From Candidatus Poribacteria bacterium (lineage in GTDB: Bacteria > Poribacteria > WGA-4E > WGA-3G), in contig JAPPIG010000051.1 in assembly GCA_028820635.1 (NCBI GenBank), positions 42,029-106,028 on the forward strand: a stretch of 64,000 bases of DNA, in the 5' to 3' direction. Positions 17,328-45,851 of the stretch are shown here, piece by piece. Below the pieces are notes generated by a model, which saw only the letters and a list, made by a program, of their open reading frames with translations, did not search any database and had not been told where the DNA came from. How positions within the stretch are numbered: position 1 is the first letter of the stretch; each line of letters opens with the position of its first letter. A program made the position numbers and the translations under genes.

Positions 17328-18137
17328 TCAATTTGACACACTACGTATATTATACTTTTGTTTCAGAATGCCCCATTTTGTTGATAACTTATCAGTTGCT
17401 TCAACTGATAAAGCATCCGCAATACCTTCCTGGAGCTCTTTAATTTCATTTTGAGAAAGCCCGCGGTTAAACATAGCAAACTCATCCATATCGCCATTAT
17501 AGTAGCGGTTTAATCTAAACGGTTCTTCAGTTCCAAGCAGCAACGGTGATTCAACAGGAACTAATTTGCCATCTTGCTTCGGATGATCGATTAGCACTTC
17601 ACCATCAAGATATACCGTCCACCATTCTCCATGTTGAAACGAAATAGCAACGTGCTGCCATTTATCTTTGACAACCTTGGGGGGACTCTGTGCAGGCACT
17701 TTACGTCCACTTGTTAATCTCCATCCCATCCATATAAAACCGTTTGGATGGAGAAGTATTTCAAAAAACTCTTCGACATCAGGGCCTTTTGCAGCAATCA
17801 GTTGCCATGTGCCGGGACCTGCTTCTAAAGTAGGGCGAATCCACGCACAAATGGTGATCCCATCGGTAAATTGGAATTGATGGGAATGAACGACCCGAAC
17901 AATTCCGTTCTTACCACCAAAATTTAGACCTTTACCAAATTTGCCGTTGGTCCAGTCTGTGTCTCCTTCTAATTTTCCATCTTGTTTGTTTCCAGATTGA
18001 TCTGTGACGGTTTTACCCGCGCCATCTTCAAAGTCAAAATAAACGACTAACCCTTCCAATTCTTCAGCTGTGCTGCTAATTTGAAAACTCGCTGCCAGAA
18101 ATACAGTTGTAAAGAACATAACTATAAAATTTCGCAT
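17328..18137 (-). CDS. Secreted LamG/concanavalin A-like protein with C-terminal KWG motif
   Basis: 269 residues. Signal peptide at 1-22 (MRNFIVMFFTTVFLAASFQI), then one LamG domain: GLVVYFDFEDGAGKTVTDQS, ITICAWIRPTLEAGPG, WQHVAISFQHGEWWTVYLDG and FRLNRYYNGDMDEFAMFNRG. Such domains bind glycans or matrix. The tail KLSTKWGILK (250-259) matches the ends of four other secreted proteins in this window. ATG 18137 is chosen over the open upstream frame because of the AGAGGTG site and the signal peptide. Single gene, downstream of the dioxygenase gene. Confidence 0.85.
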   Translation of the reverse strand: MRNFIVMFFTTVFLAASFQISSTAEELEGLVVYFDFEDGAGKTVTDQSGNKQDGKLEGDTDWTNGKFGKGLNFGGKNGIVRVVHSHQFQFTDGITICAWIRPTLEAGPGTWQLIAAKGPDVEEFFEILLHPNGFIWMGWRLTSGRKVPAQSPPKVVKDKWQHVAISFQHGEWWTVYLDGEVLIDHPKQDGKLVPVESPLLLGTEEPFRLNRYYNGDMDEFAMFNRGLSQNEIKELQEGIADALSVEATDKLSTKWGILKQKYNIRSVSN

Positions 18138-18217
18138 GAGTTTCACCTCTTTATAAATTGGGGAATAGGTTGAATTTAGGCGGATACAAATCCGCCTAAA
18201 AGATAGAGTGGATTGTT

Positions 18218-18940
18218 CTAAGCAAACGGGAAGGTGCCTTGATATCCGCGCGCTCGTGAGACGTGCCAAACACCATCATACATCGGTGTGACCTGATAAT
18301 GGCACACAACATTACTCCGTTCCATATCGTCGCGTTCTTTTGCACCTTGATGTGGCATGTGGTTGATGAACACGACACAATCGCCTGCTTTCGGATACAA
18401 AATGACGTGTTCTTGTGATTCGCACCACTCCTCAAATTTGGGACGATCTAATGGATACAGATGCGGCGGTTCGTTTAGATGTCCACCCTTTACAAACTTG
18501 AGGTGTCCTTCGCCTGGACCGTTGTCTTGAAAATAGTAGGTGGTGTTGATACCAACAGGCACCATTGCAAATGGATGTTCCTCAACATACCGCTTTTCGT
18601 GCCAATAGCCGTAAAAATCCATGTGCCATTCCTGCAGATATGGACCTGGATTGATATGTGCGCGCAGACTACGAAGTTGACACTGTTTGCCCATCAATCC
18701 TTCAAGATAAGGGCGGACGCTTGGATGCCCTACAAGTGGTGCGTAGGTGTCCGGTTCACGATCAAGCAGGGAATCAAACCACATATTACCGACTGCGTTC
18801 AAGCCCTCTTCCCAACCCTGTTCGCGTGCATAGTTAACCCGCTGACGAACATTTTCGGTTTCTTCAGGTGACAACGCGCCTTCTAATAAAACGAAACCGT
18901 TTTGTAGTAGTTGATCAATCTTAACTTTCTTATCTTCCAT
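18218..18940 (-). CDS. Phytanoyl-CoA dioxygenase (PhyH)-family Fe(II)/2-oxoglutarate enzyme
   Basis: 240 residues. The facial triad is visible: H and D in EWHMDFYGYW, and the distal H in GDCVVFINHMPHQGAK. The 2-oxoglutarate arginine is probably in the following DDMERSN segment. The family hydroxylates diverse small molecules, and the substrate here cannot be told. AAGGAGA lies 6-8 bases before the ATG. Isolated between the LamG gene (80 bases downstream) and a transporter gene; possibly co-transcribed with the latter (108-base gap). Confidence 0.88.
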   Translation of the reverse strand: MEDKKVKIDQLLQNGFVLLEGALSPEETENVRQRVNYAREQGWEEGLNAVGNMWFDSLLDREPDTYAPLVGHPSVRPYLEGLMGKQCQLRSLRAHINPGPYLQEWHMDFYGYWHEKRYVEEHPFAMVPVGINTTYYFQDNGPGEGHLKFVKGGHLNEPPHLYPLDRPKFEEWCESQEHVILYPKAGDCVVFINHMPHQGAKERDDMERSNVVCHYQVTPMYDGVWHVSRARGYQGTFPFA

Positions 18941-19048
18941 GGTTCATCTCCTTCTAAGTTTAAAGTCGTTACCAAAATTCTACATTCTTAATCACAAGAT
19001 GTCAACGTTTTCGTATTTTTTTATATGAGATTGCATGGAACTTCCCAA

Positions 19049-20530
19049 TTACCCAACAAAATGTTTAACAAATAACCCCCAACCACTAATTCCTGCAAAC
19101 ACAATTAGCACAACTGCGGAAATCAGCGAACCGACCAACATGAATGGTCGAGTGCGATAGGCAGACGGTAGTTTGAAGTTGAGATATATAGCTGCGAGCA
19201 TCATCAAAGCAATTGAGAAGTTCGCTAAGATAAATGCAGCTATTTGCGTTAAGATGTCAAACGGAATGTTCAACCAAATAATAACCATCGTGGTCAGAAA
19301 AATATAGAGACAGACCCATCGACGAATTGTATCGTAGCTCCATTCACGATTCGGCCACACAGCCTGAAAGAACTCTTGGATAACCCGTGCGTAAATTTCA
19401 GGAAGTGCTTGTAACGTTCCCCAAAGTGCAACGACGATGCAAATATAGTAAACCCAGACCAACGATGCGTGAATATTTTTCCACACGCTTGCTTGGTCGG
19501 TGAGTAGACTCCATCCTTCAAACGAACTTTCAAGACCATACAATACTGCAGCACCTGATAGCATGAATGCACCCGTCACAATGAACAGTACAATCGCGCC
19601 CATGCCAATATCCCATCGCAACGGTGCAAGAATTTTCCGCAAGCGACTAACTTGTTCTGGCTGTTCAGGTAGATAGTCAATTCTATCACGTCCGGACGCA
19701 TGACTACGAATAGCACCAATGTTCTGATGTGAAGTCATCCCCCATCTATGAATGCTAACCCAATTTGCGTAAACGATGTAACCCATCACAGAACCACCGA
19801 CGTAACCGAATGTCGTTGCCATTGTCAGCAATGGGTTTTTAACTGCATCTTCAGGTGTCCACGCTGGAAATTCAGGCAAGTGTCCAAAACGGAGACTTCC
19901 GACAATAGCCTTACCAAAATCGGGACGTACCATCAGAGTTCCGACAATCGTTCCAACAACAAGTATAGCACAGATGATAAGTTGCTGTTTTTCTAATTTT
20001 TCGAACGAGAGTCGTAAACCGAAAAGCAATGCTAAAGTGATGAAGCAAGAAGTAAATAGATTTTCCCAGATCTGTTGCGAAACAGAAGACGTAAGTGTCT
20101 CTTTAAACAAAAAATGAAGCAGTGAACCGCACGGCTTCGCAATCGGCACCCATGCTAAAGGTGCGCCTATCATTTCAAAGATGATAATAGCGATTAACAA
20201 CCATCCACGAGGCCCGGGCAGTTTGGCAAGGCGATTTCCGATATACTCACCGCTGACTGCTGTATAGCGTCCCAACAGATAGGTAACAAAAACACCCTTC
20301 ACGACGCAGCTCAACAGCACAAGCCAGAGCAGATCATATCCTGCCCATGCACCAGCACGGACAACAACAATCGTCTCGCCAGCACCGATGCTTACTGAAG
20401 CCACAATTGCCGCAGGACCAAAGACTGATGCCAGCGCAATGATCTTTTTTAGCGACCACGGATCAGCATAAGGTCCGGTGACGGGTGGAATGTCAAACTT
20501 TTCGGGATTTTGCGTATCTTCGCTTTGCAT
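19049..20530 (-). CDS. Nramp-like multi-spanning transporter
   Basis: About 493 residues with 11-12 membrane spans (AAIVASVSIGAGETI..., LLWLVLLSCVVKGVFVTYLL, MGAIVLFIVTGAFMLSGAAV, and others). The overall pattern is that of the Nramp divalent-cation transporter family. The canonical DPGN motif of helix 1 is replaced by SIGAGE, as in a divergent Nramp-related group, so the substrate may not be Mn/Fe. The frame is open from a TTG at 20572; ATG 20530 is the more likely start, although neither has a strong ribosome-binding site. Located in the inner membrane. Confidence 0.78.
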   Translation of the reverse strand: MQSEDTQNPEKFDIPPVTGPYADPWSLKKIIALASVFGPAAIVASVSIGAGETIVVVRAGAWAGYDLLWLVLLSCVVKGVFVTYLLGRYTAVSGEYIGNRLAKLPGPRGWLLIAIIIFEMIGAPLAWVPIAKPCGSLLHFLFKETLTSSVSQQIWENLFTSCFITLALLFGLRLSFEKLEKQQLIICAILVVGTIVGTLMVRPDFGKAIVGSLRFGHLPEFPAWTPEDAVKNPLLTMATTFGYVGGSVMGYIVYANWVSIHRWGMTSHQNIGAIRSHASGRDRIDYLPEQPEQVSRLRKILAPLRWDIGMGAIVLFIVTGAFMLSGAAVLYGLESSFEGWSLLTDQASVWKNIHASLVWVYYICIVVALWGTLQALPEIYARVIQEFFQAVWPNREWSYDTIRRWVCLYIFLTTMVIIWLNIPFDILTQIAAFILANFSIALMMLAAIYLNFKLPSAYRTRPFMLVGSLISAVVLIVFAGISGWGLFVKHFVG

Positions 20531-20606
20531 TGGCAAATTAATTAGAGAGGACAGACATGATTGCCTGCCCAACTTAATTCCCGCTTGGAAAGGTCAGTTA
20601 CTTCCT

Positions 20607-21329
20607 TCAACTGAGAGGTTCTAACGGCTTCGCATTCCCAAAGACAGGTACCGGCGCATCACCAAGAGCAGCCCATCGCGACGCATTCGCAATTACATGC
20701 CGTACATTTTTATCGTAATAGATAGGATACGTTTCATGACCGGGACGAAAATAGAAAATCTTCCCTCTACCGCGGTAGTAGCAACAGCCGCTACGGAACA
20801 CCTCACCGCCAGGGAACCAGCTGATGAAAACAAGCGTGTCTGGTTCTGGAATGTCAAACGGTTCACCATACATTTCGGCCTGCTCAATTTCGAAGTATTC
20901 ACCAAGTCCTTCAACAATCGGATGCCCATGTTCAATCACCCAGAGGCGTTCCTTTTCCCCTGCTTCACGCCATTTGAGGCTACACGACGTTCCCATCAAG
21001 CGTGTAAACGGTTTAGAATAGTGCCCTGAATGTAAGACGATAAGTCCCATGCCCTGTAGCACACGCGCTTTTACCTTATCCGCAATTGCGTCTTCAACAG
21101 CACCGTGCGCGGCGTGTCCCCACCATATCAACACGTCTGTTTTATCCAACACTTCGTCAGTTAAACCGTGTTCAGGTTCATCTAACGTAGCGGTTAGCGT
21201 TTCAATGCCGTGTTCACCTAACCCATCGGCAATAGCAGTATGAATACCTTTTGGGTAAATTTTGCGGATGGTTTCGTTCGTTTTTTCGTGCCTAAATTCG
21301 TTCCAAACTGTAACTAAAGGTTGTGACAT
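20607..21329 (-). CDS. ThuA-like (trehalose utilisation) domain protein
   Basis: 240 residues with a class-I glutamine-amidotransferase-like fold. Marker segments are [66 protein letters not shown] and [16 protein letters not shown]. ThuA proteins are linked to sugar utilisation, but this WNE...WWGHAAH subgroup is uncharacterised. ATG 21329 has an AAGGAG site 6 bases upstream; the open frame to 21416 is discarded. It may be co-transcribed with the transporter gene 76 bases downstream. Confidence 0.86.
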
Positions 21330-21604
21330 AACTTCTCCTTCAATTGTATTACATTGAAATTCTATTAGGAATATCTGCCAGACTATCTTATACTGAACGT
21401 GAATTCCATAAAACATCCAATATGGCTTCTTTCAAATTATATAATGCTAATCTTTCTTGCTGTTTAGTTGTGTTCATCAATCTTTACATTCCTTTAATGA
21501 GTGTGCGTTTTTTTATCTCCACGTAAGGATACATAAGGTAAAACCAAGTATCTAATGGGAGTATTGCCTCTAAACACGCTCTCGTGAAGCGAGACCTAAA
21601 TGCT
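21330..21604. other. Intergenic region
   Basis: 275 bases with no plausible gene. A short hairpin-forming sequence, CTCTCGTGAAGCGAG, lies at about 21578-21592, just after the stop of the next leftward gene (21605). It lacks a clear T-run. Confidence 0.4.
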
Positions 21605-22705: not shown

Positions 22706-22756
22706 TGCGCATCTCCTTTATAGTGGATTCTACAATTAACTTCACATCTGAGCTGC

Positions 22757-22836
22757 GAATCAACGTTGAATGCGCTTTTGGCATTCAGCCAAATCATGCA
22801 GAATACGCGTTTGGTATTCTGCATGATTTGGCGCCT
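22757..22836. repeat. Palindromic repeats, family B (two nested stem-loops)
   Basis: GTTGAATGC/GCATTCAGC (22764-22789) and GCAGAATAC/GTATTCTGC (22798-22822), the second enlarged to a longer palindrome by AAATCATG/CATGATTT. The arms differ from other copies but still pair, i.e. compensatory changes. Located in the 261-base gap between two leftward genes. Confidence 0.75.
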
Positions 22837-22966
22837 ACAGAAAATGTGCCTCTTTCATTTTAAGGTTCACAATATCAAAATCTCTGTTGAGATTTCGTTT
22901 TCAATTACACTCTAAAATACATTGAGGACTTGCACGCCGTGTCTGCAGCCACCCTCAATTTGTGAA

Positions 22967-23488: not shown

Positions 23489-23552
23489 TATCGATTTCCT
23501 CCACTGAATGTTGGTTATAAAATCACAATAGATTCATTGAAACACACAGACA

Positions 23553-23610: not shown

Positions 23611-23612
23611 CG

Positions 23613-26118: not shown

Positions 26119-26148
26119 TTGACACGCAATGCGATTTTGTGTTAAAAT
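26119..26148 (+). promoter_or_regulatory. Promoter of the STAND/PIN operon
   Basis: TTGACA (26119-26124), 18-base spacer, TAAAAT (26143-26148). The ATG at 26156 starts 7 bases after the -10 box and no Shine-Dalgarno is present, so the mRNA is predicted to be leaderless or nearly so. Confidence 0.65.
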
Positions 26149-26155
26149 TTGTCTT

Positions 26156-29100
26156 ATGAATAGTAAACCTGTAGAAAAAGGCAAAATCAAACTTTTAGAT
26201 GTCGTTGCGCTTACTGAGGATATCCCTGAACATAACCTTAAGCGTGGAGAAGTCGGCACAGTCGTTGAAATCCTTTCGGATGGCGAAGCGTTTGAGGTTG
26301 AATTCAGTGATGACAATGGACAAATGTCCAAGTGTACCAGTTTCCTTGCATCTCAATTGGAAGTTCTTCCTCACGAACCAATAAATGTAAATCAGAACAG
26401 ACAAGCAAATGATGCCATACAAGGTTATTACTATCAACTTTGCCATACTGTAAATGCTTGGTTAGACCTTGTTGATAATGATATTCTCTATGTTGAAGTT
26501 GCAGAAGATTTTGACATAGATTCAGATGGGACGTTTACGGCTACGCAAGTCAAACACACACAAGGCAACATAACACTTAGATCTAAACAAGTAATTGACG
26601 CAATCAACAACTATTGGAAATTACGAAAAAACAATCTTAATCGTTATGTAAAATTCCGTCTCCTCACAAAATCCAAAATCGGCAAAGAACAAGGTGATCC
26701 TTTTGGAACGGATAAACCAGGTCTTGAGTTATGGAGTCGTTGTTCAGGTGATGAAGCCGTAATCCAAAAAATATCTCGCTTTTTGCAGAATGATGGGAAA
26801 ATATCATCTGACGTAAATGATTTTCTTCAGAAGGCAACACCTCAAGAAATTTATGACCAACTTATAGAACCCATTGCTTGGGAAACTGATAGCAAACCTG
26901 CAAGTTTCGTTGAACAATCCATAAGTAAAAAACTGATTACTCATGGTCATGAGTACAAGATTGCACCTTCTTATGCCAAGAAAGTCGTTGATCATCTTCT
27001 CAAAGAAGCGTTAACAGTTGCAACAAAAAAGAAAAATCGTGAACTTACCAGAGCACGTTTTCTTGAAATTTTTGAAGAGAAGACAACAATAAGAGTGCCG
27101 ATTCAACAGCATATTCAGGCACAACAACCGATCAATCCAAAGCTTATTCTCGATTATTTTAAGGAAGAAATCGAAGAACTCGTCGATGATCTATCTGAAT
27201 TTAGCATTCAATTTCAGCATCCTATACAAACTGATATACCTCCACTCAATTTTGATGTTGCTCAGAGAGCAGAACTGCTCACAGATATTCAAGTTAAACT
27301 TGAAGTCGAAAATTTTGTCGTAATTCAAGGAGGAACTGGAAAAGGAAAGACCACACTTGCAAAATTGTATGCAAATGCTATTAGTAGTAAATGGCTTTGG
27401 GTAAACTTTACAAATAAAGATTCTTCTCTGATCGTTCAACATCTGCAGCAACTTGCTGCTGCAGTTAGTCAGGAAGCATCACAGGTCAATATTGTCCTTG
27501 ACGATTTGAATTTACAACCTCAACAGCTTCGAGAGTATACAGAAATCCTAAGCGTAGTCGTTAATAGAATTAGGGAAAGTAGGGCAAAATTATTGATTAC
27601 AAGTCAACATAAACCGCCTAATAACTTCACCCGTGATCTTGGTGTATCATCTTCCGTAACTACCAATGTTCCTAACTTTACTTCACCTGAGATTGAACAA
27701 TTTGCACTACAAATGGGATGTCCAACTAACGATATAAAAACTTGGGTAACACTTATTCAAGCACATACAGGTGGACATCCAAGGCTCGTACACGCTCGAC
27801 TCGCCCAATTACGAGAGGAAGGATGGAAACAACCGGACACAATCGAAGGTATGATATATCCCTCCCAAGAAATAAAAAAAGAACGTGAAGCAGCACGACA
27901 ATTACTCACTGACTACTCAAAAGATCAACGTGAATTTCTTTATAGACTCAGTTTGCTAACTGAATTCAGAAAAGATTATGCAATTAATATTGGTGAGATA
28001 CCTGCACCTATACCCCATCCAGGCGATGTTTTCAGTCAATTGGTTGGCCCTTGGATAGATCAAGTCAATGAGACCTATTATACTATTTCACCTTTATTAA
28101 AGGATGCCGCCAAAGAGGTTTGGTCCGATGATAGAATAAAAGATCTTCATGGGCATATTGCAGATGCTATAATTAAAACAAAGAAACTGACCCCAACAGA
28201 GGGCTGGACTGTATTTACACATAGTATGGTTGGCCAGAACAAAGAAGGAATTATTGCTTTCATTTATTCATTGATGGACGCTCCAGAGAGTGGTTGGAAA
28301 GATCTCTGTCAACAATTCTCGATGTTAGCACATATTAAAACTGATCCTCCCGAAGAATTATTCCCTGGTGAAACATTTGTAAATCAAATGTTTCGGACAC
28401 TGCAATATCGCATTGCAGTTGAGGTGAAACCTGAATTAGTTCCAAAGATACTTGAAATCTGGGATAAAGAAACCAAACCTTATGAACCCCGCCAGTCATA
28501 CTTGCTGTCTCGTCTCATGTTAGCAACAGAAATACTCAAATATAATCAAGTGACACTACCAGCCAAGAAACTGGTAGGTTATCTTAAAGAAATTATTGAT
28601 ATTAAAAACATGGACAAAAAGGTTTGGAAGTCATATTTTAATCCCATGGAAGAATTAAAAGAAATAAACATTGATGAATCAAACTTTTTCAGTTTTCTAT
28701 TTAGTTTTATCTATGCACGGCCTCCTATTTACGAGCCGTTTCTCAGCGACCTTATTGATGCGTTGGATGAACTACAGCCAGAAATTCGAACTTTACTATT
28801 GGCTGACTTTGGAGGGAATAGTATTGAAGCTCAGCTTTTGATTAGTGGCGTTTGGTTGGCAGAATCAAAGCTTGAAAATCCCGATTGGCAAAGGTGTCTT
28901 GAAACTTTTGATAAAGTAATTGAAAAAGCTATTGCCTGGGGTTATCCACATATCGCAGCCGCATCAGCAAAAGGAAAAGCCATCATCTATGACGAATACT
29001 TGAACACCCCTGACACTGCCCATGAAGTTCTTAAAGATATTACATCAAAAGTCGGATCACTACCGGTGATAGAAGAAGAGCGTGCATTGGTATATTTCCA

Positions 29101-30637
29101 CCAAGAACATTATAGAGAAGCACTAAATATTTATGAACGTATTCTCCCAAAATGGGATCCACCATCGGAACAATTAAACATCGGACCTTTAGAGGAATAT
29201 CGAAGAGCTGCTGTGTGCGCTGCACATTTGGACGATTGGAAAAAAGCAGCTACCTTTTTCGAAGAGGGAGCTAAAAGAACCCAAAAGATTGAAAATACCG
29301 AAAGATATATCGGTTTATATGCAGATGCAGGATTTGCCCAGTTTAAGGCAGGCAATATGTTGAACTGCATAAAATTTCTACATCTTGCGTTGCAAGATTT
29401 TGAGAAACGTCCTCAAGACAAGACAGACCTTCAGTATTTCACTTTGAAAAAACGATTAGAACACACTATAAAATGGTTATGGCAAATATGGTGTGGGTTT
29501 GAAGATAACGCTTCAGAACCCTCTGAACTCCCCCCGGGTTTTTGTAGCAATACGGAGACTAACGAAAAAGTTTTAGACTTACCTGATTCTCCGATAGGAT
29601 ACTCTTGGCTCTACCTTGCACAAATTGAGTACAGATTTGGGCATGAGACGACAATTTTTCAACAGGCCTTTCAAACCACAAATAAAAATACATATCCAGA
29701 ATTAAGTTTCTTTCTCTCTCTACTTAAAACACAATACGACTTTAGAAACAAAACCCTCAATGAGCTGCCAGCACGTATACAGCAATTGGCAAATGCTTGC
29801 AACTCAATACAAAAGCACTTCCAAAATGGTAAAGGGATCGGAGAAGAGGGAATCGGCTTTATACCTATAGAAAATGTGCCTAATTTCACATCTGTTGAGA
29901 ACATCACTGTTATGTTAGTAGCAGCCCTTATTATTCAATTATCAGCAGGGGCAGATACACATGCAATTTTGTCTATATGGCGTGCTAATTCTTCAGAGCT
30001 ATTCATAAAAGAAAATATGACAACTGTTCTTAATCTGATTGACAGAATGCTATCTGCAGATCAAAATAACGTCCTAAAAGTGATGAAAACACAAGATGTT
30101 AAATCTGAAGAAAGGTTAACAGCAGCATTAAAGATTATTTATAATACCGAAACAAGTCCAAAAGATCTTTTTCATGCACATATACTCATTTCAACTTATC
30201 TCGTAGATAGTCTAATATGGCTAGATCCCTTCTTGACAGGTTTAGCAGACTTGCTTTCCGTACAGTGGCTTGAGAAAATAAAATTTCGAGCTGCATTGAA
30301 AATGCCTATGGTTACAGTGCCCGAAATTGAACAAGCCTGTAAGAGTAGTGAAACCGGTAAGAAAAAAATTGGTCAGATTCTACTCGCTGTACATCCCGCT
30401 GTTTCAGCCAGAGTAGCACCTGATACATTGCAGCAGTTTCGCACTTGGACAGAATCAGATCAGAAACAGGAACATACAATAAGAAAAAATCTCGCTGCTC
30501 AACGCCTCATCAAAGCGATGGAAAAGCCACCGCATCTCACTGATGAAGACATTGAAGCACTCAATCAGTCCATAAAAGAGGGGGAAATACCTATAAAATT
30601 TGATTCACCCTTTGATTCGGATGAAAGCGAAAAATAA
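26156..30637 (+). CDS. DUF4926 / Cap4-like nuclease / STAND NTPase / helical-repeat protein, putative anti-phage protein
   Basis: 1493 residues. Residues about 10-70 match DUF4926 (KLLDVVALTEDIPEHNLKRG, GTVVEILSDGEAFEVEFSDD). Residues 84-230 look like the Cap4/DUF4297 dsDNA nuclease: GYYYQLCHTVNAWLDLV, acids around E114-D121, and Q131-V-K133. The NTPase has Walker A GGTGKGKTT (392-400, K398) and Walker B IVLDD (445-450), then winged-helix-like and long TPR-like alpha-repeat sequence to about residue 1470. Nuclease, STAND NTPase and sensor repeats in this order are the plan of Avs-type phage sensors. The stop overlaps the next ATG (TAATG). The usual longer start at 26129 is discarded because it lies inside the promoter. 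Confidence 0.82.
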   Translation: MNSKPVEKGKIKLLDVVALTEDIPEHNLKRGEVGTVVEILSDGEAFEVEFSDDNGQMSKCTSFLASQLEVLPHEPINVNQNRQANDAIQGYYYQLCHTVNAWLDLVDNDILYVEVAEDFDIDSDGTFTATQVKHTQGNITLRSKQVIDAINNYWKLRKNNLNRYVKFRLLTKSKIGKEQGDPFGTDKPGLELWSRCSGDEAVIQKISRFLQNDGKISSDVNDFLQKATPQEIYDQLIEPIAWETDSKPASFVEQSISKKLITHGHEYKIAPSYAKKVVDHLLKEALTVATKKKNRELTRARFLEIFEEKTTIRVPIQQHIQAQQPINPKLILDYFKEEIEELVDDLSEFSIQFQHPIQTDIPPLNFDVAQRAELLTDIQVKLEVENFVVIQGGTGKGKTTLAKLYANAISSKWLWVNFTNKDSSLIVQHLQQLAAAVSQEASQVNIVLDDLNLQPQQLREYTEILSVVVNRIRESRAKLLITSQHKPPNNFTRDLGVSSSVTTNVPNFTSPEIEQFALQMGCPTNDIKTWVTLIQAHTGGHPRLVHARLAQLREEGWKQPDTIEGMIYPSQEIKKEREAARQLLTDYSKDQREFLYRLSLLTEFRKDYAINIGEIPAPIPHPGDVFSQLVGPWIDQVNETYYTISPLLKDAAKEVWSDDRIKDLHGHIADAIIKTKKLTPTEGWTVFTHSMVGQNKEGIIAFIYSLMDAPESGWKDLCQQFSMLAHIKTDPPEELFPGETFVNQMFRTLQYRIAVEVKPELVPKILEIWDKETKPYEPRQSYLLSRLMLATEILKYNQVTLPAKKLVGYLKEIIDIKNMDKKVWKSYFNPMEELKEINIDESNFFSFLFSFIYARPPIYEPFLSDLIDALDELQPEIRTLLLADFGGNSIEAQLLISGVWLAESKLENPDWQRCLETFDKVIEKAIAWGYPHIAAASAKGKAIIYDEYLNTPDTAHEVLKDITSKVGSLPVIEEERALVYFHQEHYREALNIYERILPKWDPPSEQLNIGPLEEYRRAAVCAAHLDDWKKAATFFEEGAKRTQKIENTERYIGLYADAGFAQFKAGNMLNCIKFLHLALQDFEKRPQDKTDLQYFTLKKRLEHTIKWLWQIWCGFEDNASEPSELPPGFCSNTETNEKVLDLPDSPIGYSWLYLAQIEYRFGHETTIFQQAFQTTNKNTYPELSFFLSLLKTQYDFRNKTLNELPARIQQLANACNSIQKHFQNGKGIGEEGIGFIPIENVPNFTSVENITVMLVAALIIQLSAGADTHAILSIWRANSSELFIKENMTTVLNLIDRMLSADQNNVLKVMKTQDVKSEERLTAALKIIYNTETSPKDLFHAHILISTYLVDSLIWLDPFLTGLADLLSVQWLEKIKFRAALKMPMVTVPEIEQACKSSETGKKKIGQILLAVHPAVSARVAPDTLQQFRTWTESDQKQEHTIRKNLAAQRLIKAMEKPPHLTDEDIEALNQSIKEGEIPIKFDSPFDSDESEK

Positions 30638-35057: not shown

Positions 35058-35837
35058 TTAACGGCTACTCGATGATTTCAATGATGCCCATTTGACAGTA
35101 ATCTTGCTCTTACTGTCAATAGGTAAAGCAGTATTTGAAAGTTTTCTAATCTCTCCCATACTCAATGCACGCTCAAAAATCATTACCTCGTCAATCAGTC
35201 CTCTGAAGTATCTGTTGCCACCACAGCATTCGTCCCATCCAAACTTTAAATTGAGTACTGTTTGCTGGATATGCGGCCTTTTATTATCAGCAAACTCAAA
35301 CTTACCATTTTCTTTGTGATAAATATAACTTGTTGCTTTTTCAGGTTGAATGACTATAGCCATTAAGACCCACTCGTCCTTTGGAATGCGAGGCGCACCA
35401 TGCCAAAACCATGTATCTATGCTATTATTATTCCATATATACATCACAGTGTCTTGATGATTAAACCCTAAACCGAATGTGCTGGGGTCATTTCTACCTA
35501 TAACAACGCCTGCCCAGTCTACTGTTTTCCATCCTTTTATCCGAGCGATTACAGTAATTTTATCTGTCATTAAAGTAAAATTTCTGTCAACAACTGCATG
35601 ACCGCTTATTCCGTCAACTTCAAGTGCACCTCCGATCCATCCATCCTTAACCCATTTAGCACCACCTTTTATAGTAGCATTATTGCCATAGCCAGACTGA
35701 TCCGATCCGCTATCGTCTAAAGGCCAATATCCAACAAGTCCGTCACTTAAATTAGCTGCGAGCGCATCGTTATTGAAAGTGGGTATCATTAATATAATAG
35801 ACATTAATATTACATACACAGTAATTCTAAATTTCAT
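35058..35837 (-). CDS. Secreted LamG/concanavalin A-like protein with C-terminal KWA motif
   Basis: 259 residues. Signal peptide about 1-27 (MKFRITVYVILMSIILMIPT...ALAA), one LamG domain (GLVGYWPLDDSGSDQSGYGN, VDGISGHAVVDRNFTLMTDK, RGLIDEVMIFERALSMGEIR), and the tail KITVKWASLK (245-254) followed by SSSSR. ATG 35837 has an AAAGGA site; the longer frame overlaps the upstream gene. Probably co-transcribed with the zincin gene that ends 29 bases upstream, and sharing its C-terminal tag. Confidence 0.85.
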   Translation of the reverse strand: MKFRITVYVILMSIILMIPTFNNDALAANLSDGLVGYWPLDDSGSDQSGYGNNATIKGGAKWVKDGWIGGALEVDGISGHAVVDRNFTLMTDKITVIARIKGWKTVDWAGVVIGRNDPSTFGLGFNHQDTVMYIWNNNSIDTWFWHGAPRIPKDEWVLMAIVIQPEKATSYIYHKENGKFEFADNKRPHIQQTVLNLKFGWDECCGGNRYFRGLIDEVMIFERALSMGEIRKLSNTALPIDSKSKITVKWASLKSSSSR

Positions 35838-35866
35838 ATCTTTATTCCTTTTCTTGTATGATACGA

Positions 35867-37153
35867 TTACCTGTTTAATGATTTTAGCGAAGCCCATTTG
35901 ACAGTCAGTTTATTTCTGGTATTTACTGATCTGGGGTTTTTCAAATTTGTATCATCATCTTCAGGTATTTCTTCTATAGAAACCTCGCATCCTTCGCATA
36001 CATGTTTGACTTCATCATTATTATTGTCTAAATCTTCAGGATTTTTATTGTCAAATTTCTCATCAAACGCTTGCTTGGATAAGTCTGGGTTACCAAGTTG
36101 TTCTCCATCATCAATACTAACTGGTTTAAGATCGTAATTTTTATCCCCAAACTTCTCGTCAAAGTTTTTTCTATACAAATCTAAGTCGGTAGGTTCCTGT
36201 CTCGGCAATGCATAACCTTGAGCGTAATACATCCAATTGCCATCATTGTCCATAAGTTGTACCCCGATATTGTTGCTACCTAAAACATGTCCGAGATCTA
36301 CATCAAAAACTGCAGTGTCGTTGTTATTGCTGCCATTAAAGAAATCCCATCCTACAATATTTGTATTAAGCCCAACATAAGCTTGATGTATCCCGCTGTT
36401 ATCTCTTATATCTATGCTAAATCTAATCTTACCGTTATCTAATTGTTCTGTATTGTGAAACTTTACAATACTCGGAGCAGTTCCAAAATTCCATTGATTA
36501 TTGAAATAACATAATTTAGACAACCACCTCGCCTCATGCAGAGATAATTTCTCACCGCTACCTAATATAAATTCTTTTGGATTATAAAGCACAATATGCC
36601 ACAGACCAAAGGTGTGTCCTAACTCATGAAGAATGATCTGTTCCGTGTTTTCTCTTGACGTTTCTGCACTAAGAGCGAAGCCGTGATATTCATCACTATT
36701 CCACGGTCTAGCACTTCCCATACCTCCAAACCAACCGCCTTGAATAGCAGGTACTCCTGCTATAACGATGGAGTATATATTCTTTTTATCATTGAATCTT
36801 TGTTGTATTTCTGATACAACCAATCCGAAAGTATCATGATAGTAAAATGCCTTATTATGCCTGCCAAAAACTTTATGGACTATGACATCTCCTTGATTGT
36901 CAAGTTCTAATCTAAAAGTCTTATTCGGAAATCCATGCCTATTCATTTCGCTCCTATAGACATTTTGGCTGGATTTCATAATATCATCCAAATCTAACCA
37001 ATCAGATTTATCAACGCTGTCTGTAGGAATAAAATATACCGTTCGTACGGTATACGGATCAAGCGAAAAAGAGTTTTGGAAACCAGAAAATACAAACAAT
37101 AACATACTCAGATATATAAGTGGTCGGACGGAATTATGAAAGCTGTTATTCAT
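35867..37153 (-). CDS. Secreted zincin metalloprotease with C-terminal KWA motif
   Basis: 428 residues. Signal peptide to about residue 30 (LSMLLFVFSGFQNSFS). The catalytic site HELGHTFGLWH fits HExxHxxGxxH of metzincins, followed by a domain with IRDNSGIHQAYVGLN. A low-complexity acidic segment (EDLDNNNDEVKHVCEGCEVS; with two NFDEKFGDKN-like repeats) precedes the tail KLTVKWASLK (415-424) and SLNR. Likely an extracellular or surface protease. AAAGGAG lies 10 bases before the ATG. Operon with the LamG gene. Confidence 0.85.
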   Translation of the reverse strand: MNNSFHNSVRPLIYLSMLLFVFSGFQNSFSLDPYTVRTVYFIPTDSVDKSDWLDLDDIMKSSQNVYRSEMNRHGFPNKTFRLELDNQGDVIVHKVFGRHNKAFYYHDTFGLVVSEIQQRFNDKKNIYSIVIAGVPAIQGGWFGGMGSARPWNSDEYHGFALSAETSRENTEQIILHELGHTFGLWHIVLYNPKEFILGSGEKLSLHEARWLSKLCYFNNQWNFGTAPSIVKFHNTEQLDNGKIRFSIDIRDNSGIHQAYVGLNTNIVGWDFFNGSNNNDTAVFDVDLGHVLGSNNIGVQLMDNDGNWMYYAQGYALPRQEPTDLDLYRKNFDEKFGDKNYDLKPVSIDDGEQLGNPDLSKQAFDEKFDNKNPEDLDNNNDEVKHVCEGCEVSIEEIPEDDDTNLKNPRSVNTRNKLTVKWASLKSLNR

Positions 37154-39408: not shown

Positions 39409-39459
39409 ACATATTCACCTCAATTACGGTAGATTTTAGAATCACTTGAACACTCTGCA

Positions 39460-39490: not shown

Positions 39491-39541
39491 GACGAAAGTG
39501 CCAGTTTATTTTATAATTCACAATAATAATACCTTCGCCAA

Positions 39542-40159: not shown

Positions 40160-40161
40160 AC

Positions 40162-40203
40162 AAAAAAACGGCTCAAACCCAAGTTATTACTGGATTCAAG
40201 CCG
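40162..40203 (-). terminator. Intrinsic terminator downstream of the discoidin gene
   Basis: Read leftward: CGGCTTGAATCC, an 11-base loop, GGGTTTGAGCCG, then TTTTTTT (40168-40162). The 12-bp stem pairs completely if G-U pairs are allowed. It lies 27 bases after the stop codon at 40230. Confidence 0.8.
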
Positions 40204-40229
40204 ATTTAGAAAATGTCTGATATTTGCGC

Positions 40230-40925
40230 TTATCGGACCTTTTTGATGCTTGCCCATTTGGTTGTGAGCTTGGCTTTAGGGTCTACGGGATAACTATCAT
40301 CGCCGAAGAACTCAATTTCGCCAATTTGAAAGTACGCCCCAGCCGGGTTCGATGCGGTGTCAAAAGTAACATGCCGAAAAAACTTATATCCGATTTTTTG
40401 CTTATCGTAATCTTCGCCTGCCTCAAAAAGGACGACTTGCAGTCGCTGATCCCAAAAGCTATCCCCGTCGTGAGCATAGATGGTCTCAAACTCCTTGCCG
40501 TCGTTCGACCCCTGAACCTCCCACACTGTGGGGTCCCTTGCAGGAACATCATTTGCTGAAGATACGGTGAAGTGTGTCAATGCGTACGGCTCCTCAAACT
40601 CAGCTGTCACGTGTAGGCCTTCCTCCGGAATGCCTCCTCCACGTCCTCAGCACCATTTGGCATTGCCGGGGCCAAGGACGTGATCGAAGACGTTAAACGC
40701 AAATTCCCCGCCCGCGAATCCGGGTTCATCGTTGGCTGTGAACTTGGCGTTGTAACCGTCATCTGCTTCAGGATTACCATCGTCTTCTGGATCGGTTAGG
40801 TCTCCTCCGAGCAGTGAATCTGTTCCTACTCCCAAGACTTCCTCCGCCTGTGCTATGTCGCTTGTGCTGAGAACACAAAAGGCTATCATCAACACAAATC
40901 CTGCTAATACCAACATAATTTTCAT
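40230..40925 (-). pseudogene. Secreted discoidin (F5/8 type C) protein with in-frame TGA and C-terminal KWA motif
   Basis: One frame holds a signal peptide (MKIMLVLAGFVLMIAFCVLS), an acidic linker (ADDGYNAKFTANDEPGFAGG), the start of a discoidin domain (VFDHVLGPGNAKWC), a TGA at 40647-40649, and then GRGGGIPEEGLHVTAEFEEP, NDVPARDPTVWEVQGSNDGK, HVTFDTASNPAGAYFQIGEI and the tail KLTTKWASIK + KVR. Without the TGA it would be a normal 231-residue protein. ATG 40925 has AGGAGG 9 bases upstream. A nonsense mutation is the simplest reading; the distal part could be re-initiated at GTG 40610 but would lack a signal peptide. Confidence 0.8.
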
Positions 40926-41398
40926 GTCGCTCAACCTCCTATAGAAATGAATCTCACTTTACGTGAGTTTCGTATTAAATATAGGTGAGTTTGAATAAAC
41001 TGCACCTATTTTACCATACCAATCTTTACTAATCTATGTTCCATAATAACATATTATTTCATATTATGATAACCTAAGTTGCCACATAGTAGCACAATCT
41101 GTATGAAGATTAATTTATTTAATCTTCATTTAAAATCTTGTCCATAGCAACTTGAGTTAAATTACCGAATTAAAAACTTAATCTTCATACAAGTGATTTC
41201 TCACATGTTCCAAGTATTATACCTTTTTATATTTTTCTGTCAAGTTTTTTTGCTAATTTATCAAAAAAAGGTGTTGAGATTGCCCTACTATAGCGTTTTT
41301 TTCTGCCGTCTGGTTTATACATAGGGTTTTTACGGTTTCGGGTGGTAACAACGATACGGAATGCGGGTGGTTTATCAGATTAGCCGTGCAGTAGGACT
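40926..41398. other. AT-rich intergenic region
   Basis: Part of a 789-base gene-free stretch between divergent transcription units. Left part: possible promoter of the discoidin gene and an 88-bp imperfect palindrome (41071-41158). I see no open frame with a recognisable product. Confidence 0.5.
41071..41158. repeat. 88-bp imperfect palindrome
   Basis: The left arm begins AACCTAAGTTGCCACATAG and ends ATGAAGATTAA; the right arm is its near complement, TTAATCTTCAT ... CTATAGCAACTTGAGTT-like (actual CCATAGCAACTTGAGTT). The central loop is about six bases. A further TTAATCTTCATAC lies at 41179-41191. Confidence 0.6.
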
Positions 41399-41641
41399 CA
41401 GAGGCATTCAATTGTCGCGCAGTGTTCTTGTTGGAGGGAATCAACGCTGAATACGCGTTTGGTATTCAGCCAAATCAACGCCAAATGCGCGTATGGCATT
41501 TGGCGGGTTTGTAACCCCGATTTCTTTTGTAGGAGCGAGTTCCAACTCGCGACCTTTCGTAATATGTCGCGAGCTGGAGCTCGCTCCTACAGTAAGAGGT
41601 TTTAGAGAAAAGAATAAATTATTCGAAAATTGAATGGCTCT
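41399..41641. mobile_element. MITE-like element with terminal repeats and target duplication
   Basis: Ends CAGAGGCATTCAATTGTC (left) and AGAGCCATTCAATTTTC (right end, reverse complement), about 14 of 17 matching. The flanks carry GCAGTAGGACT (41388-41398) and GCAATAGGACT (41642-41652), an 11-base direct repeat with one mismatch. The interior is made of palindromic repeats: family B (41438-41508) and facing family A copies (41529-41554, 41566-41592). There is no gene inside. A shorter relative lies at 63740-63858. Confidence 0.7.
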
Positions 41642-41661
41642 GCAATAGGACTACATTTATA

Positions 41662-41690
41662 TTGACACATTCAAGTTGATATGTTAATAT
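41662..41690 (+). promoter_or_regulatory. Promoter of lnt
   Basis: TTGACA (41662-41667), 17-base spacer, TAATAT (41685-41690), 24 bases before the GTG start. It lies just right of the MITE-like element. Confidence 0.65.
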
Positions 41691-41714
41691 TTATCTAAAT
41701 TTTGTACCTATCCT

Positions 41715-43319
41715 GTGGAATACATTTTGGATTTTTTAAAACGTTCCCGATATTGGCTCGCTGCAAGTTCAGGTATAATTTTGTTCTGTAGTTTTCCCAG
41801 TGTTAATTTGTTTCCACTTGCATGGGTTGCGATAGTCCCGTTATTGATAGCACTTGAATCTGTAGAGAGTTGGAAATCAGCATTTCTCGTAGGGTATGTA
41901 GCAGGATTTTTGTTTTTTGCAGGTCTACTTATAGCAATTGTGCTCTTATATCCCTATGCGAATATCTTTGCGACATTGCTTGGCTACATACTTTTAGTAG
42001 GGTATACAGCACTCTATTTTGCAGTCTTTGCGGTATTAGTACATCAGTTACCGTGGCAATCAGGCATTCTATTCCCATTAGGGGTTGCCGCTATCTGGGT
42101 TAGCTTAGAATGGGTGCGGAGCTGGCTATTAACAGGCTTTCCCTGGGGTAACATCGGTTATTCACAGTGGAAATATCTGCCAGGAATTCAAATCGCATCT
42201 TTGACCGGTGTTTACGGCATTAGCTTTGTGATTGTATTTTTCAATGCGGGGATTGCAACGTTAATTCGACGTAGACAGGAGTGGCGAAAAGAATTAATGG
42301 CAATAATTGTTCCTTGCTTGTTAGCAATGATATGTCTAATTTATGGATATGCTGCAATTGCGAGAAGTGAAAATACTTCCCAAAAAAGTATGAAGGTGGC
42401 AATTATTCCAGGGAATATCTTGCAAATTGAGAAATGGAAATCAGAGAGTATCGAAAAGATTATAAAAAAATACCTCAATTTGACACGAAAAGCCGCAGTT
42501 GAAAAGCCTGACGTAATTGTTTGGCCCGAGACGACAGTTAGAGGACAAGTAATATCTGGGGAGTGGATAGTACAAACCTCATCTAATAGTTTTAGAAGAT
42601 TTCATAACTTATTCAAGCAGACGTTCGGAGAAATTGATGGCATTCCAATGCTTATAGGTGCTACTGATCAAGATGCCTTCGGAGATTTGTACAATCGGGT
42701 TATGTCAGTGTCATCGGAAGGTGAAGTACTTAGTAAGTATGCCAAGATGCACCTTGTGCCGTTTGGAGAATACGTTCCTTTAGCAGATTTTCTACCCAAT
42801 TTTGTCCAATTTAAACCGTTTGAACATGGTAAAACAGTAAACCTTTTACCAATAACAAACGTTGAAACCATGCAAACCAACGATGAAGAAATAGAAGTCG
42901 GGACATCAATTTGCTTTGAATCCGCCTTTCCGAGCCATTTTCGGCAGTTCGTGAAAAAAGGTGCAGATGCAATGGGTATTCTTACGAATGATGCGTGGTT
43001 TGTTGGAACCGCTTTCCCTGATCTGCATCTGGCAATGGCACCTTTGCGCGCGGTCGAGAATCGAATTGCTGTTTTTCGCTGCGCGAATGGTGGATACTCA
43101 TGTGTTGTTGACAGTTTTGGACAGATTACGACACCATTTGTCACACCACAAACTGATAAAGAGTTCTTAATAGCAGATGTAGCACTATCAGAAGGAAAAC
43201 AGACGTTTTATACACGATATGGTGATTGGTTGCCTATCCTCTGTTTAGTGCTTAGTATACTATGTATTGCTTATAGAGTTGTAATACGATACACAAAGCC
43301 TAAAATCACAGATAATTGA
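41715..43319 (+). CDS. lnt: Apolipoprotein N-acyltransferase
   Basis: 534 residues. Inner-membrane enzyme that N-acylates diacylglyceryl-lipoproteins in the periplasm. N-terminal part with about six membrane helices, then a nitrilase-like domain with the catalytic Glu (VWPETT), Lys (AKMHLVPFGEYVP) and Cys (GTSICFESAFP), and a last helix near the C-terminus. It starts with GTG 41715, with no clear Shine-Dalgarno; a promoter lies 24 bases upstream. prfB begins 11 bases after its stop. Confidence 0.95.
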   Translation: MEYILDFLKRSRYWLAASSGIILFCSFPSVNLFPLAWVAIVPLLIALESVESWKSAFLVGYVAGFLFFAGLLIAIVLLYPYANIFATLLGYILLVGYTALYFAVFAVLVHQLPWQSGILFPLGVAAIWVSLEWVRSWLLTGFPWGNIGYSQWKYLPGIQIASLTGVYGISFVIVFFNAGIATLIRRRQEWRKELMAIIVPCLLAMICLIYGYAAIARSENTSQKSMKVAIIPGNILQIEKWKSESIEKIIKKYLNLTRKAAVEKPDVIVWPETTVRGQVISGEWIVQTSSNSFRRFHNLFKQTFGEIDGIPMLIGATDQDAFGDLYNRVMSVSSEGEVLSKYAKMHLVPFGEYVPLADFLPNFVQFKPFEHGKTVNLLPITNVETMQTNDEEIEVGTSICFESAFPSHFRQFVKKGADAMGILTNDAWFVGTAFPDLHLAMAPLRAVENRIAVFRCANGGYSCVVDSFGQITTPFVTPQTDKEFLIADVALSEGKQTFYTRYGDWLPILCLVLSILCIAYRVVIRYTKPKITDN

Positions 43320-43329
43320 AAGGATATAA

Positions 43330-44437
43330 ATGCTTACAGACTTAAAAATAGAAGTTGATGCCGTGACAAATCAACTTCATGAACTCAGGGGGTATCTTTG
43401 ACCTGTCTACAAAACAAAGAGAATTAGAAGAACTTGAAAAAGAGGCGATGGCACCAGATTTTTGGGGGAATTCGCAGCGAGTACAAACAGTAAATCAACG
43501 TATTGCTGCCCTAAAAGATGAAATTGGTGAATATGAAAAAATAGAGAGTGTTATTGACGATCTACAGGTTCTGATTGAACTTGCCATTGAAGAAGACGAT
43601 TCCAGTTTGGATCCAGAAATTCAAAACGGTATCGCAACAGTTACGACGCAGTTAGAGAAAATGGAACTGCGTTTAATGTTAAATGGGGAATTTGATGAGA
43701 ACAATGCAATTCTTTGTATTAATCCTGGGGCAGGCGGCGTTGATGCACAAGATTGGGCAGGCATGTTGATGCGGATGTATCTCCGTTGGTGTGACCAGCA
43801 TAACTATACGACTGAAGTCGCTGACCTTACACCTGGAGATGAAGCTGGAATTAAAGGAGCAACGATTTTTGTTAAAGGAGCATCTGCTTATGGCTACTTG
43901 CAAGCAGAATCTGGTGTACATCGTCTCGTTCGTTTATCTCCCTTTGATTTTAACAAGAGACGTCATACCTCATTTGCGGCGGTGCACGTTACACCAGAAA
44001 TTGACGAGAGTGTTGATGTTGAAATCAATGCTGAAGACCTGCGGATTGATACCTATCGAGCCAGTGGTGCTGGTGGGCAACATGTCAATGTTACAGACTC
44101 GGCAGTCCGAATCACCCATGTTCCGACAGGGATTATGGTACAGTGCCAGAACGAACGTTCGCAGCACAAAAACCGAGAAATCGCTATGAAGGAGCTGCGT
44201 TCTCGGCTATACATCCATTTTAGAGCGCAACGTGACGAAGAACTGGCAAAACTACAACCAGAAAGACGAGATATTGACTTCGGTAGCCAAATTCGTTCTT
44301 ATGTACTACATCCATATCAACGGGTCAAAGATACGAGAACAAACATTGAAACAGGTAACGTTGAGGCTGTTTTGAATGGCGATATAGATACGTTTATTGA
44401 AAGTTTTCTGAAAATGAAGGTGGCAGAAAATAAGTAA
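43330..44437 (+). CDS. prfB: Peptide chain release factor 2 with programmed +1 frameshift
   Basis: Read as 43330-43398 joined to 43400-44437 (368 residues). The first 23 codons end AGG GGG TAT CTT followed by in-frame TGA C: the classical RF2 autoregulatory site with an internal Shine-Dalgarno (AGGGGG) 3 bases before CTT-TGA. Shifting +1 gives GAC CTG and continues the RF2 frame. The protein recognises UGA/UAA: SPF tripeptide in LSPFDFNKRRH and catalytic GGQ in ASGAGGQHVNVTDS. AGGAT lies shortly before ATG 43330. Annotation from 43379 alone would miss the N-terminus. Confidence 0.97.
43387..43402 (+). promoter_or_regulatory. prfB: prfB programmed frameshift site
   Basis: AGGGGGTATCTTTGAC: SD-like AGGGGG, 3-base spacer, slippery CTT, UGA stop and a C in the following position. 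This is the canonical arrangement that makes RF2 synthesis respond to low RF2 activity. Confidence 0.97.
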
Positions 44438-44459
44438 GTACCTTTGATAGGAAGAAAAA

Positions 44460-45851
44460 ATGAAATCTTTTAGATGTTTTGCATATTTTTCTATTGTTCT
44501 AAGTCTAATTTGTGTCAATATGCAGACATTCGCTGCAGTGATTCATGTTCCTGCTGATCAACCGACAATTCAATCAGGTATTGATGCTGCAAAAGATGGG
44601 GATACGGTGTTAGTAGCAGATGGAATCTACAAAGGCAAAGGAAATGTAAATATAGATTTTAAAGGGAAACAGATTACCGTTAAGTCCCAGAATGGAGCGG
44701 AAACGACTACAATCAGTTGCCGGTGGACTGAGAACACACGAGGTTTCATCTTTCAGAATGGAGAGACTCATGATTCAGTATTGGATGGTTTTTCGATTAA
44801 AAATGGTGTTCATGATCTGGGTGGTGGAATCTATTGTAAAAATGCTTCACCGACGATTAAAAATTGTGTCATAGCATGGAACAGAGCGGCTGAAAACGAC
44901 CGTGGGACTGGTTATGGTGGTGGAATTTACTGCTTTAACTCTGATGCGAAAATAATTGACTCTATAATCTCAAACAATAGGGCTGAATCTGCTTATGGTG
45001 GAGGTGTTTACTTTGATGGGGACACGATAATAGACGATGTTATCTTGAGAGAAACCTCGTTTAAACCCTCACTTCTCAATTGCACTATTTCAGACAATAC
45101 TGGCAGTGGCGTTCATATCCAATCCGATGCAAGCTCTGAAATTAGAGACTCCAAGATAATACATAATAGTTGGCGAGGCATTATATGTACATTTTTTTCT
45201 CGCGGCGGCACCCTCATTACAAATTGTGAAATTGCCCAAAACACTGGCGGTGGGGTGGAGGTCAGCGAGTATTCTATTCTGAAAATCACCGATTCTATCA
45301 TCAAGCAAAATACCGCTAAATATGGCAGTGGAATTTCCTGTAGCCCATCAGGAAATGTAGTGGTCTCTGAATGTGTTATTGCGCAAAATATCGCAACACA
45401 ACGGGGTGGAGGAATTGGGATTTTTGGGTCAAAGTGGGGGGACGCAGAAATCACCCGCTGTACAATTACGCGTAATTCTGCGAGCGAGAGAGGTGGTGGC
45501 ATTTATATTGATAGCGAAACTTCCTTTAGATTAACTGATTCCATTGTTTGGGGTAATAATTCAGACAACACACACGCTGAAGTTTTTGTTTCTGGTAGAG
45601 GAATAGTTATTAAATCAAACGATATCAAGGATGGTCTTAATGGTATCGGGCGCGAGCCAGATGGGGATTTTATCTATGAAGACAACATTGATGAGGATCC
45701 GCTTTTCGTTGATGCTGATAGAGGTGATTATAGGCTTAAGCGTCAAAGTCCTGCAGCAGAGATGGGGCCGCAATCGTCCGTTGGAGGTGCGCTCAGCGTC
45801 ACATCAGTAGGGAAAAGATTGGTAAAATGGGCAGAACTCAAGCGTAGATGA
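44460..45851 (+). CDS. Secreted right-handed beta-helix protein with C-terminal KWA motif
   Basis: 463 residues. Signal peptide about 1-25 (MKSFRCFAYFSIVLSLICVN...FAA). The opening IHVPADQPTIQSGIDAAKDG is typical of DUF1565/NosD-like beta-helices. Many stacked repeats follow (GGGIYCKNASPTIKNCVIAW, GGGVYFDGDTII, RGGGIYIDSETSF) and a late LFVDADRGDYRLKRQSPAAE. The tail KRLVKWAELK (452-461) + RR is the most diverged copy of the C-terminal motif found on four other secreted proteins here. TAGGAAG site before the ATG. It lies 22 bases after prfB. Confidence 0.87.
   Translation: MKSFRCFAYFSIVLSLICVNMQTFAAVIHVPADQPTIQSGIDAAKDGDTVLVADGIYKGKGNVNIDFKGKQITVKSQNGAETTTISCRWTENTRGFIFQNGETHDSVLDGFSIKNGVHDLGGGIYCKNASPTIKNCVIAWNRAAENDRGTGYGGGIYCFNSDAKIIDSIISNNRAESAYGGGVYFDGDTIIDDVILRETSFKPSLLNCTISDNTGSGVHIQSDASSEIRDSKIIHNSWRGIICTFFSRGGTLITNCEIAQNTGGGVEVSEYSILKITDSIIKQNTAKYGSGISCSPSGNVVVSECVIAQNIATQRGGGIGIFGSKWGDAEITRCTITRNSASERGGGIYIDSETSFRLTDSIVWGNNSDNTHAEVFVSGRGIVIKSNDIKDGLNGIGREPDGDFIYEDNIDEDPLFVDADRGDYRLKRQSPAAEMGPQSSVGGALSVTSVGKRLVKWAELKRR

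Follow-up and report, generated by a model that had tools for sequence, protein, structure and literature searches.

The present analysis concerns a 64,000-nucleotide stretch of DNA from a Candidatus Poribacteria bacterium (contig JAPPIG010000051.1, positions 42,029 to 106,028), hereafter the window, and a short peptide, hereafter the tag, that recurs at the C-terminus of five of its encoded proteins. The tag looks like a previously undescribed C-terminal sorting signal for the cell envelope that would be akin to the family of C-terminal domains (CTDs) of the type IX secretion system (T9SS) without belonging to it. From sequence comparisons, we see an even chance that it is a Poribacteria-specific signal for sorting or attachment, a stand-alone form of a segment that also precedes some CTDs, and that it probably acts together with parts of the T9SS. 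Poribacteria are uncultured, partly sponge-associated bacteria that are best known from sponges. The genome that holds the window comprises 5.97 Mb in 136 contigs, and the window is part of one of these (C23). The five copies of the tag in the window are as follows.

17361..17405, minus strand: tag VEATDKLSTKWGILK of a LamG protein (PF13385, E 3.5e-22), with a 10-residue tail before the stop codon
35076..35120, minus strand: tag IDSKSKITVKWASLK of a LamG protein (35058-35897; E 1.1e-14), with a 5-residue tail
35882..35926, minus strand: tag VNTRNKLTVKWASLK of a zincin-like metalloprotease (35867-37153; zincin families match only below cut-off), with a 4-residue tail
40242..40286, minus strand: tag VDPKAKLTTKWASIK of a discoidin-like protein (F5/8 type C, E 0.0022, below cut-off) whose reading frame is broken by a TGA codon, with a 3-residue tail
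45798..45842, plus strand: tag VTSVGKRLVKWAELK of a right-handed beta-helix protein (44460-45851; Beta_helix, E 2.6e-24), with a 2-residue tail

The preliminary description of this DNA had reported a shared C-terminal tag on these five proteins, and all five indeed carry it at their C-termini. It had also assigned a signal peptide to each. This holds for four of them by a crude rule of our own script, not a trained predictor, on which all signal-peptide calls reported here are based; the discoidin-like open reading frame (ORF) lacks one, the signal peptide being encoded in a 5' part beyond the TGA. For the LamG carrier of VEATDKLSTKWGILK, the likely start codon is the ATG at 18137 and not the TTG at 18269.

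The conserved motif begins five residues upstream of the tag as first delimited, at V-[ED]-P, and in full it reads L-[AS]-V-[ED]-[PA]-x-x-K-L-[TA]-T-T-W-[GA]-x-[LI]-K, after which there are usually 1-6 further residues. The version with K before W that is seen in the window is a local variant of this wider tag. In 61 tags from fetched stretches of the same genome, found with a regular expression that left the position free, the residue five before the first K is V in 58 and I in 3; it is followed by E, D or S in 52 and then by P or A in 56. Among 193 tags pooled from several genomes, 134 have T and 7 have K before the W, 183 have a tail of 1-6 residues, and the T and G that lie inside a predicted helix (below) are largely conserved. 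The invariance of K, W and K was not used as evidence, since the rows had been picked by patterns requiring these residues, and neither was the constancy of V/I in the pool of 193, where the pattern required V or I. For the conserved V, E, P, L, T, G and K, every synonymous codon is in use among the 193 tags, which argues that it is the peptide that is conserved and not a mobile piece of DNA.

An AlphaFold2 model of the LamG carrier of VEATDKLSTKWGILK, made from a fragment beginning two residues past the likely start, places the tag in a separate short helix (fragment residues 249-260; predicted local distance difference test score, pLDDT, of ~61-78 for the block). A stretch of lower confidence precedes this helix, and the arrangement is as expected of a peptide that is read by a partner. 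In the predicted helix, L, W and L would lie on one face, with K at both ends.

The tag is abundant and almost strictly C-terminal. Within the 55 called genes of the window, a ten-residue core regular expression gave exactly five matches, each no more than 20 residues from the C-terminus and none internal; by gene class, these fell in 4 of 11 signal-peptide, 1 of 41 soluble and 0 of 3 membrane proteins. When the last 40 residues of each window protein were shuffled, there were 0 matches over 200 passes. A profile of the tag run against the whole genome indicated at least 150 copies (150 of 254 first-look candidates were scored, all with E <=4.8e-4); the scored 150 do not include three of the tags of the window itself, so the true copy number is higher. 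In 1015 called proteins (1008 distinct) from the window and 73 loci, of which 33 had been retrieved because they bear tags, 110 profile hits (109 distinct) reached 12 bits or more, and 109 of the 110 lie no more than 25 residues from the C-terminus. A signal peptide was called in 103 of these 109 C-terminal carriers; the other six fail the crude rule, and at least one of them looks by eye as if it has a signal peptide. Similarly, all 90 hits (79 distinct) in 54 other loci of poribacterial genomes are C-terminal, and 77 of the 90 come with a signal peptide; only position counts as evidence here, because every one of these loci was retrieved by its tag, and some genes are cut by the locus ends.

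Samples taken with less regard to the tag point in the same direction. In 20 stretches of 20 kb chosen by position, albeit by an analyst to whom the locations of LamG hits were already known, the regular expression matched five of the 75 signal-peptide genes and one of the 204 soluble ones; none of the 27 membrane genes and none of the three with a weak signal was hit, and no match was internal (5/75 against 1/234 for signal-peptide genes versus the rest; Fisher p 0.004). In 20 further stretches, picked mostly for LamG hits, it matched 48 of 99 signal-peptide genes versus 2 of 204 others. The genome has 110 PF13385 hits, 56 of them in the LamG stretches, contig C122 and the window, and the tag ends 48 of these 56 LamG ORFs: all but two of the 50 that are below 450 residues, and none of the six longer ones. 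Leaving out the two of the window and the one of C122, the choice of which may have been guided by the tag, 45 of 53 LamG ORFs (45 of 47 short ones) are tagged, a tag-independent sample that covers 53 of the genome's 110 LamG hits. One of the two short untagged exceptions has C instead of W. These counts support the proposed link to export.

The carriers are unrelated in fold, as had been stated for the five window proteins. Among 56 carriers, most of them picked for having no LamG hit, 54 Pfam families were matched at E <=0.001, some of them overlapping; those listed include 3-keto-disaccharide hydrolase, CBM9, NPCBM, WD40-like propellers, leucine-rich repeats (LRR), zincins, F5/8, beta-helix and ankyrin.

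The suggestion that the tag is specific to a lineage also agrees with its distribution. At E <=0.01, the tag profile found 22 to at least 107 matches in each of the 84 genomes searched in the phylum, representing 21 of 21 genera. In 84,980 species genomes, a strict pattern searched at the DNA level (V-E-P-x-G-K-L-T-T-T-W-G-x-L-K) occurred at 42 loci, all 42 of which are titled Candidatus or uncultured Poribacteria; the range outside the phylum is thus given for the strict form only, and the records closest to the window's genome were perhaps left out. When compared with models of known families, seven tag peptides matched no Pfam family and ten matched no NCBIfam model (E up to 10 in both cases), short queries that have little power. 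In the literature on Poribacteria, no title or beginning of an abstract among the papers listed concerned such a tag, most subscription journals being outside the search.

A connection to the T9SS is suggested by the single non-terminal hit in the 1015 proteins, in which the tag is followed by seven residues and then by a complete T9SS type A CTD. With 120 residues of this protein as a query, in which the V of the tag is residue 15, hits that start at residues 1-3, and hence before the tag, were obtained in 46 genomes, all from a single family that is represented here by 58 genomes. The tag and its spacing are kept in all 12 that were read of those 46, and the sequence upstream varies. A tag-like segment at the same offset was present in 27 of 29 further CTD proteins, a biased proportion, since 18 of the 20 regions were taken for a hit to the query that started no later than the tag. 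Of the pair lacking such a segment, one came from a hit starting after the tag and one from a region picked with TIGR04183; the other such region among the 20 gave no CTD protein in the scan. The segment is mostly V[ED]P followed by G-x-[IVL]-[KR], located seven residues before [YF]PNP, and the W is often L or F. Compared with one another, the profiles of the pre-CTD segment and the tag matched with a probability of 97.7% (E 1.7e-12) in an alignment of 19 of 20 columns, and all 27 pre-CTD segments outscore 99.9% of 36,599 background windows. There are therefore three classes of protein, with a CTD alone, with tag and CTD, and with the tag alone, and those with the tag alone stop about where the CTD would start.

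Candidate T9SS components occur throughout the phylum. The preliminary description had suggested a signal with unknown machinery and had noted that the tag is much shorter than a type IX CTD. The tag is indeed not a CTD; the reading as a signal apart from the T9SS needs changing, given that the same motif precedes some type A CTDs and that relatives of SprA, PorV and C25/PorU are present. Type A CTDs and PorV-family proteins score over cut-off in 84 of 84 genomes (8-24 PorV matches per genome), peptidase C25 occurs in 83, and SprA relatives occur in 83, but in 82 of these they are below the family cut-off. In the window's genome, one C25 protein fits the model of the PorU sortase with E 2e-124 and 416.5 bits, just short of the cut-off of 420, and its gene adjoins one of the PorV family. 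The complete SprA relatives that were read are ~2,000-2,300 residues long, and PF14349 is over cut-off in two of three SprA-like proteins tested. When a model of the SprA-like protein of the window's genome was compared with the PDB using Foldseek, the four best matches were T9SS translocon chains (8gl6, 8gl8, 6h3i and 6h3j), with E values of 4.8e-25 to 1.3e-19 for these SprA chains and 2.4e-6 for the next match. The only SprA match over cut-off is in genome G006, on contig C30 (locus L153); since a second, weaker match lies on C4 of the same genome, G006 either has two copies of SprA or is a mixed bin. Foreign DNA was considered as a source of the L153 match and dropped, its GC content of 0.63 resembling that of other loci of its class. 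The neighbours of SprA in eight genomes include none common to all, and two loci of one genus share some. The available part of a 2014 paper reports the Por structural genes as not found in Poribacteria (PMC3909097). With relatives of SprA, PorV and C25/PorU each occurring in no fewer than 83 of the 84 genomes, the T9SS question becomes testable.

A possible course of events is as follows. The carrier would cross the inner membrane by Sec, using its signal peptide; its helical C-terminal peptide would then dock on an outer-membrane partner, most likely a PorV-family protein or the SprA/PorU apparatus, and the docked protein would reach the cell surface or be retained there. In proteins that have both elements, the CTD would serve in export, and cleavage within the linker of seven residues would then make the tag the end of the mature protein, the same end that tag-only proteins have. 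More tentatively, and as a possibility that we regard as short of likely, Poribacteria may have a divergent T9SS with two C-terminal signals, one being the classical CTD and the other a helical signal of ~16 residues that stands without a CTD and would mark surface proteins across the phylum. The genome of the window has at least 150 tags versus 56 CTD hits. To our knowledge, the tag would be shorter than any known T9SS sorting signal. We prefer a T9SS partner on three grounds: the motif and its spacing are shared, PorV paralogs are numerous, and different CTD types use different shuttles, as described in the available text of PMC12618676. If the tag does work through the T9SS, a short recognition element would be separated from the folded CTD. 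Additionally, candidate surface proteins of these uncultured bacteria would become predictable from sequence alone.

Several observations weigh against involvement of the T9SS. In addition to the bias in the count of pre-CTD segments and the low scores of the SprA relatives, the AlphaFold2 model of the SprA-like protein that was used above (its C-terminal 1200 residues) is of modest quality, with a pLDDT of 66.8, and neither a single SprA-like protein nor a profile built from eight of them retrieved any SprA in sequence searches of the PDB. The GldM model gave nothing over cut-off, with one weak match in the 84 genomes (E 0.0042). Only 3 of the 51 CTD proteins obtained from the 56 CTD hits of the window's genome have a tag-like segment, and two of these three segments score weakly (7.5 and 4.7 bits). 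Proteins with only the tag and proteins with a CTD share almost no domains: a search for domain pairs in which one has been swapped for the other gave only two weak BLAST matches between 204 tag and 22 CTD proteins flagged by regular expressions, at least one of the 22 being wrongly flagged. Finally, a CTD should suffice for the export of proteins that have both elements, so the tag may do something else.

One such role would be that of a docking peptide of the mature protein that is independent of the T9SS and, after export by another route, binds a phylum-specific partner such as a surface polysaccharide, an S-layer or a scaffold protein. This would fit the order of tag and then CTD, in which removal of the CTD would expose the tag, the fact that 48 of the 51 CTD proteins do without a tag, and the LamG, CBM, discoidin, beta-helix and LRR folds of the carriers, which suit an extracellular matrix. 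However, a plain docking motif need not be near the C-terminus, as 109 of 110 hits are, the fixed spacing to the CTD ties the tag to a T9SS module, and no such partner was found; we regard this explanation as rather unlikely, if still a serious one. The separate short helix of the AlphaFold2 model, with its predicted face of L, W and L between terminal lysines, might instead be an amphipathic helix that binds membranes with no protein receptor. Such helices tolerate substitution, in contrast to a tag in which the position five before the first K is V or I in all 61 copies and the T and G are largely kept, and a hydrophobic face of just three residues is small, which makes this improbable.

That tag-only proteins end about where a CTD would start, with tails of 1-6 residues as compared to a linker of seven, could also mean that the carriers descend from T9SS cargo that lost its CTD and that the pre-CTD linker has remained without use. 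A relic would decay, and yet there are at least 150 copies in one genome, matches in every genome searched, a full variety of synonymous codons and unrelated carriers, so that we give this explanation very little weight. We give even less to a periplasmic signal for quality control or retention, read by a protease or chaperone. A C-terminal position and signal peptides fit a periplasmic reader equally, but PDZ-type readers require the exact last residues, whereas the length of the tail after the tag varies, and the copies before CTDs would be left unexplained.

Among known signals, the type A CTD of Bacteroidota (TIGR04183, Por_Secre_tail) resembles the tag in being located at the C-terminus of Sec-exported proteins of many folds. 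According to the accessible text of PMC10994853, it also has a conserved lysine near the C-terminus, as does the tag, and forms a 7-stranded beta-sandwich. The two differ in that the tag has ~16 residues and is predicted to be helical, whereas the beta-sandwich of the type A CTD has about 70-100. A reduced signal beside a long one in a single organism, as may be the case here, is described for the short T9SS CTDs of Prevotella intermedia in the portion of PMC11969387 that was available; the same portion gives these CTDs as 43-55 residues long, with three beta-strands and CTD motifs B, D and E, and cites a finding that only the 22 C-terminal residues of Hbp35 are absolutely required for secretion and attachment of green fluorescent protein. 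The poribacterial tag, unlike these, corresponds to the stretch before the CTD. MYXO-CTERM, PEP-CTERM/exosortase and GlyGly-CTERM/rhombosortase are, like the tag, short C-terminal homology domains on unrelated exported proteins. Each of the three comprises a hydrophobic membrane segment and a basic end, and has a dedicated intramembrane protease. MYXO-CTERM of Myxococcota is phylum-wide, with dozens of copies per genome and an invariant Cys, as far as the available part of PMC11980579 goes. The tag, in contrast to these three and to LPXTG, has no hydrophobic run and no conserved Cys, in agreement with the earlier remark that it lacks a hydrophobic anchor of the kind found in PEP-CTERM or LPXTG. 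Exosortase (PF09721) was detected in 3 of the 84 genomes (G015, G017 and G003), and the window's genome is not among them; the three assemblies consist of 540-910 pieces each.

The K before W that is common to all five window tags is found in all six tags on contig C23, the sixth being at L033:1238, and the six proteins are unrelated. Elsewhere in the genome it is present in 1 of 100 tags read, some of which were retrieved with a profile dominated by T at this position. A narrow pattern containing KW, run over the whole genome, has 6 of its 12 matches on C23; with 7 matches of the reversed control as compared to these 12, it is a poor probe by itself. A foreign origin of C23 was considered as the source of the variant, and is unsupported by GC content, tetranucleotides or codons. 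Local exchange of tags and a strain difference are candidate readings of this clustering.

The discoidin-like gene of the window is split by the following codon.

40647..40649, minus strand: in-frame TGA, between a 5' part (ORF 40647-40934) and a 3' part that reaches 40230

The signal peptide lies in the 5' part, and the discoidin domain and tag lie in the 3' part (ORF 40230-40610), which has no signal peptide of its own. An unbroken relative (L069:7294-7992) has signal peptide, discoidin part and tag together, and at the position of the TGA it has a Cys that adjoins another Cys. RNA beginning one codon before the TGA folds better than most shuffled sequences (z -2.45; 4 of 200 shuffles were as good), and a search of the window with Rfam at gathering scores gave nothing. 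The TGA is either a nonsense change, an assembly error or a selenocysteine codon.

Other genes of the envelope, and other stretches before CTDs, were also recorded. With a loose regular expression, 32 of the 51 CTD proteins of the window's genome (L218-L266) were found to have a different pre-CTD stretch, approximately [RK]GI..LE.LL......TALL.N, where the tag would be. The same genome encodes three very large C25 proteins of 1,740-2,164 residues (on C134, C63 and C34; L160-L163), each with a terminal CTD hit, and a PorV-family gene is directly behind one of them. A further PorV-family gene lies behind one for a protein of 999 residues, the C-terminal part of which matches the PorZ model. In the window itself, the gene at 51928-54552 had been flagged by a CTD regular expression and is actually BamA (390 bits); LpxD is encoded at 55426-56526 (365 bits), and both are over cut-off, which leads us to expect an outer membrane containing lipid A. 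In addition, 26129-30637 encodes a 1502-residue protein that has weak matches to ATPases and, at its N-terminus, a match to the anti-phage-associated DUF4297 family (E 2.1e-8, far below cut-off), and it is followed at 30637 by a small ORF that appears PIN-like on reading of its sequence.

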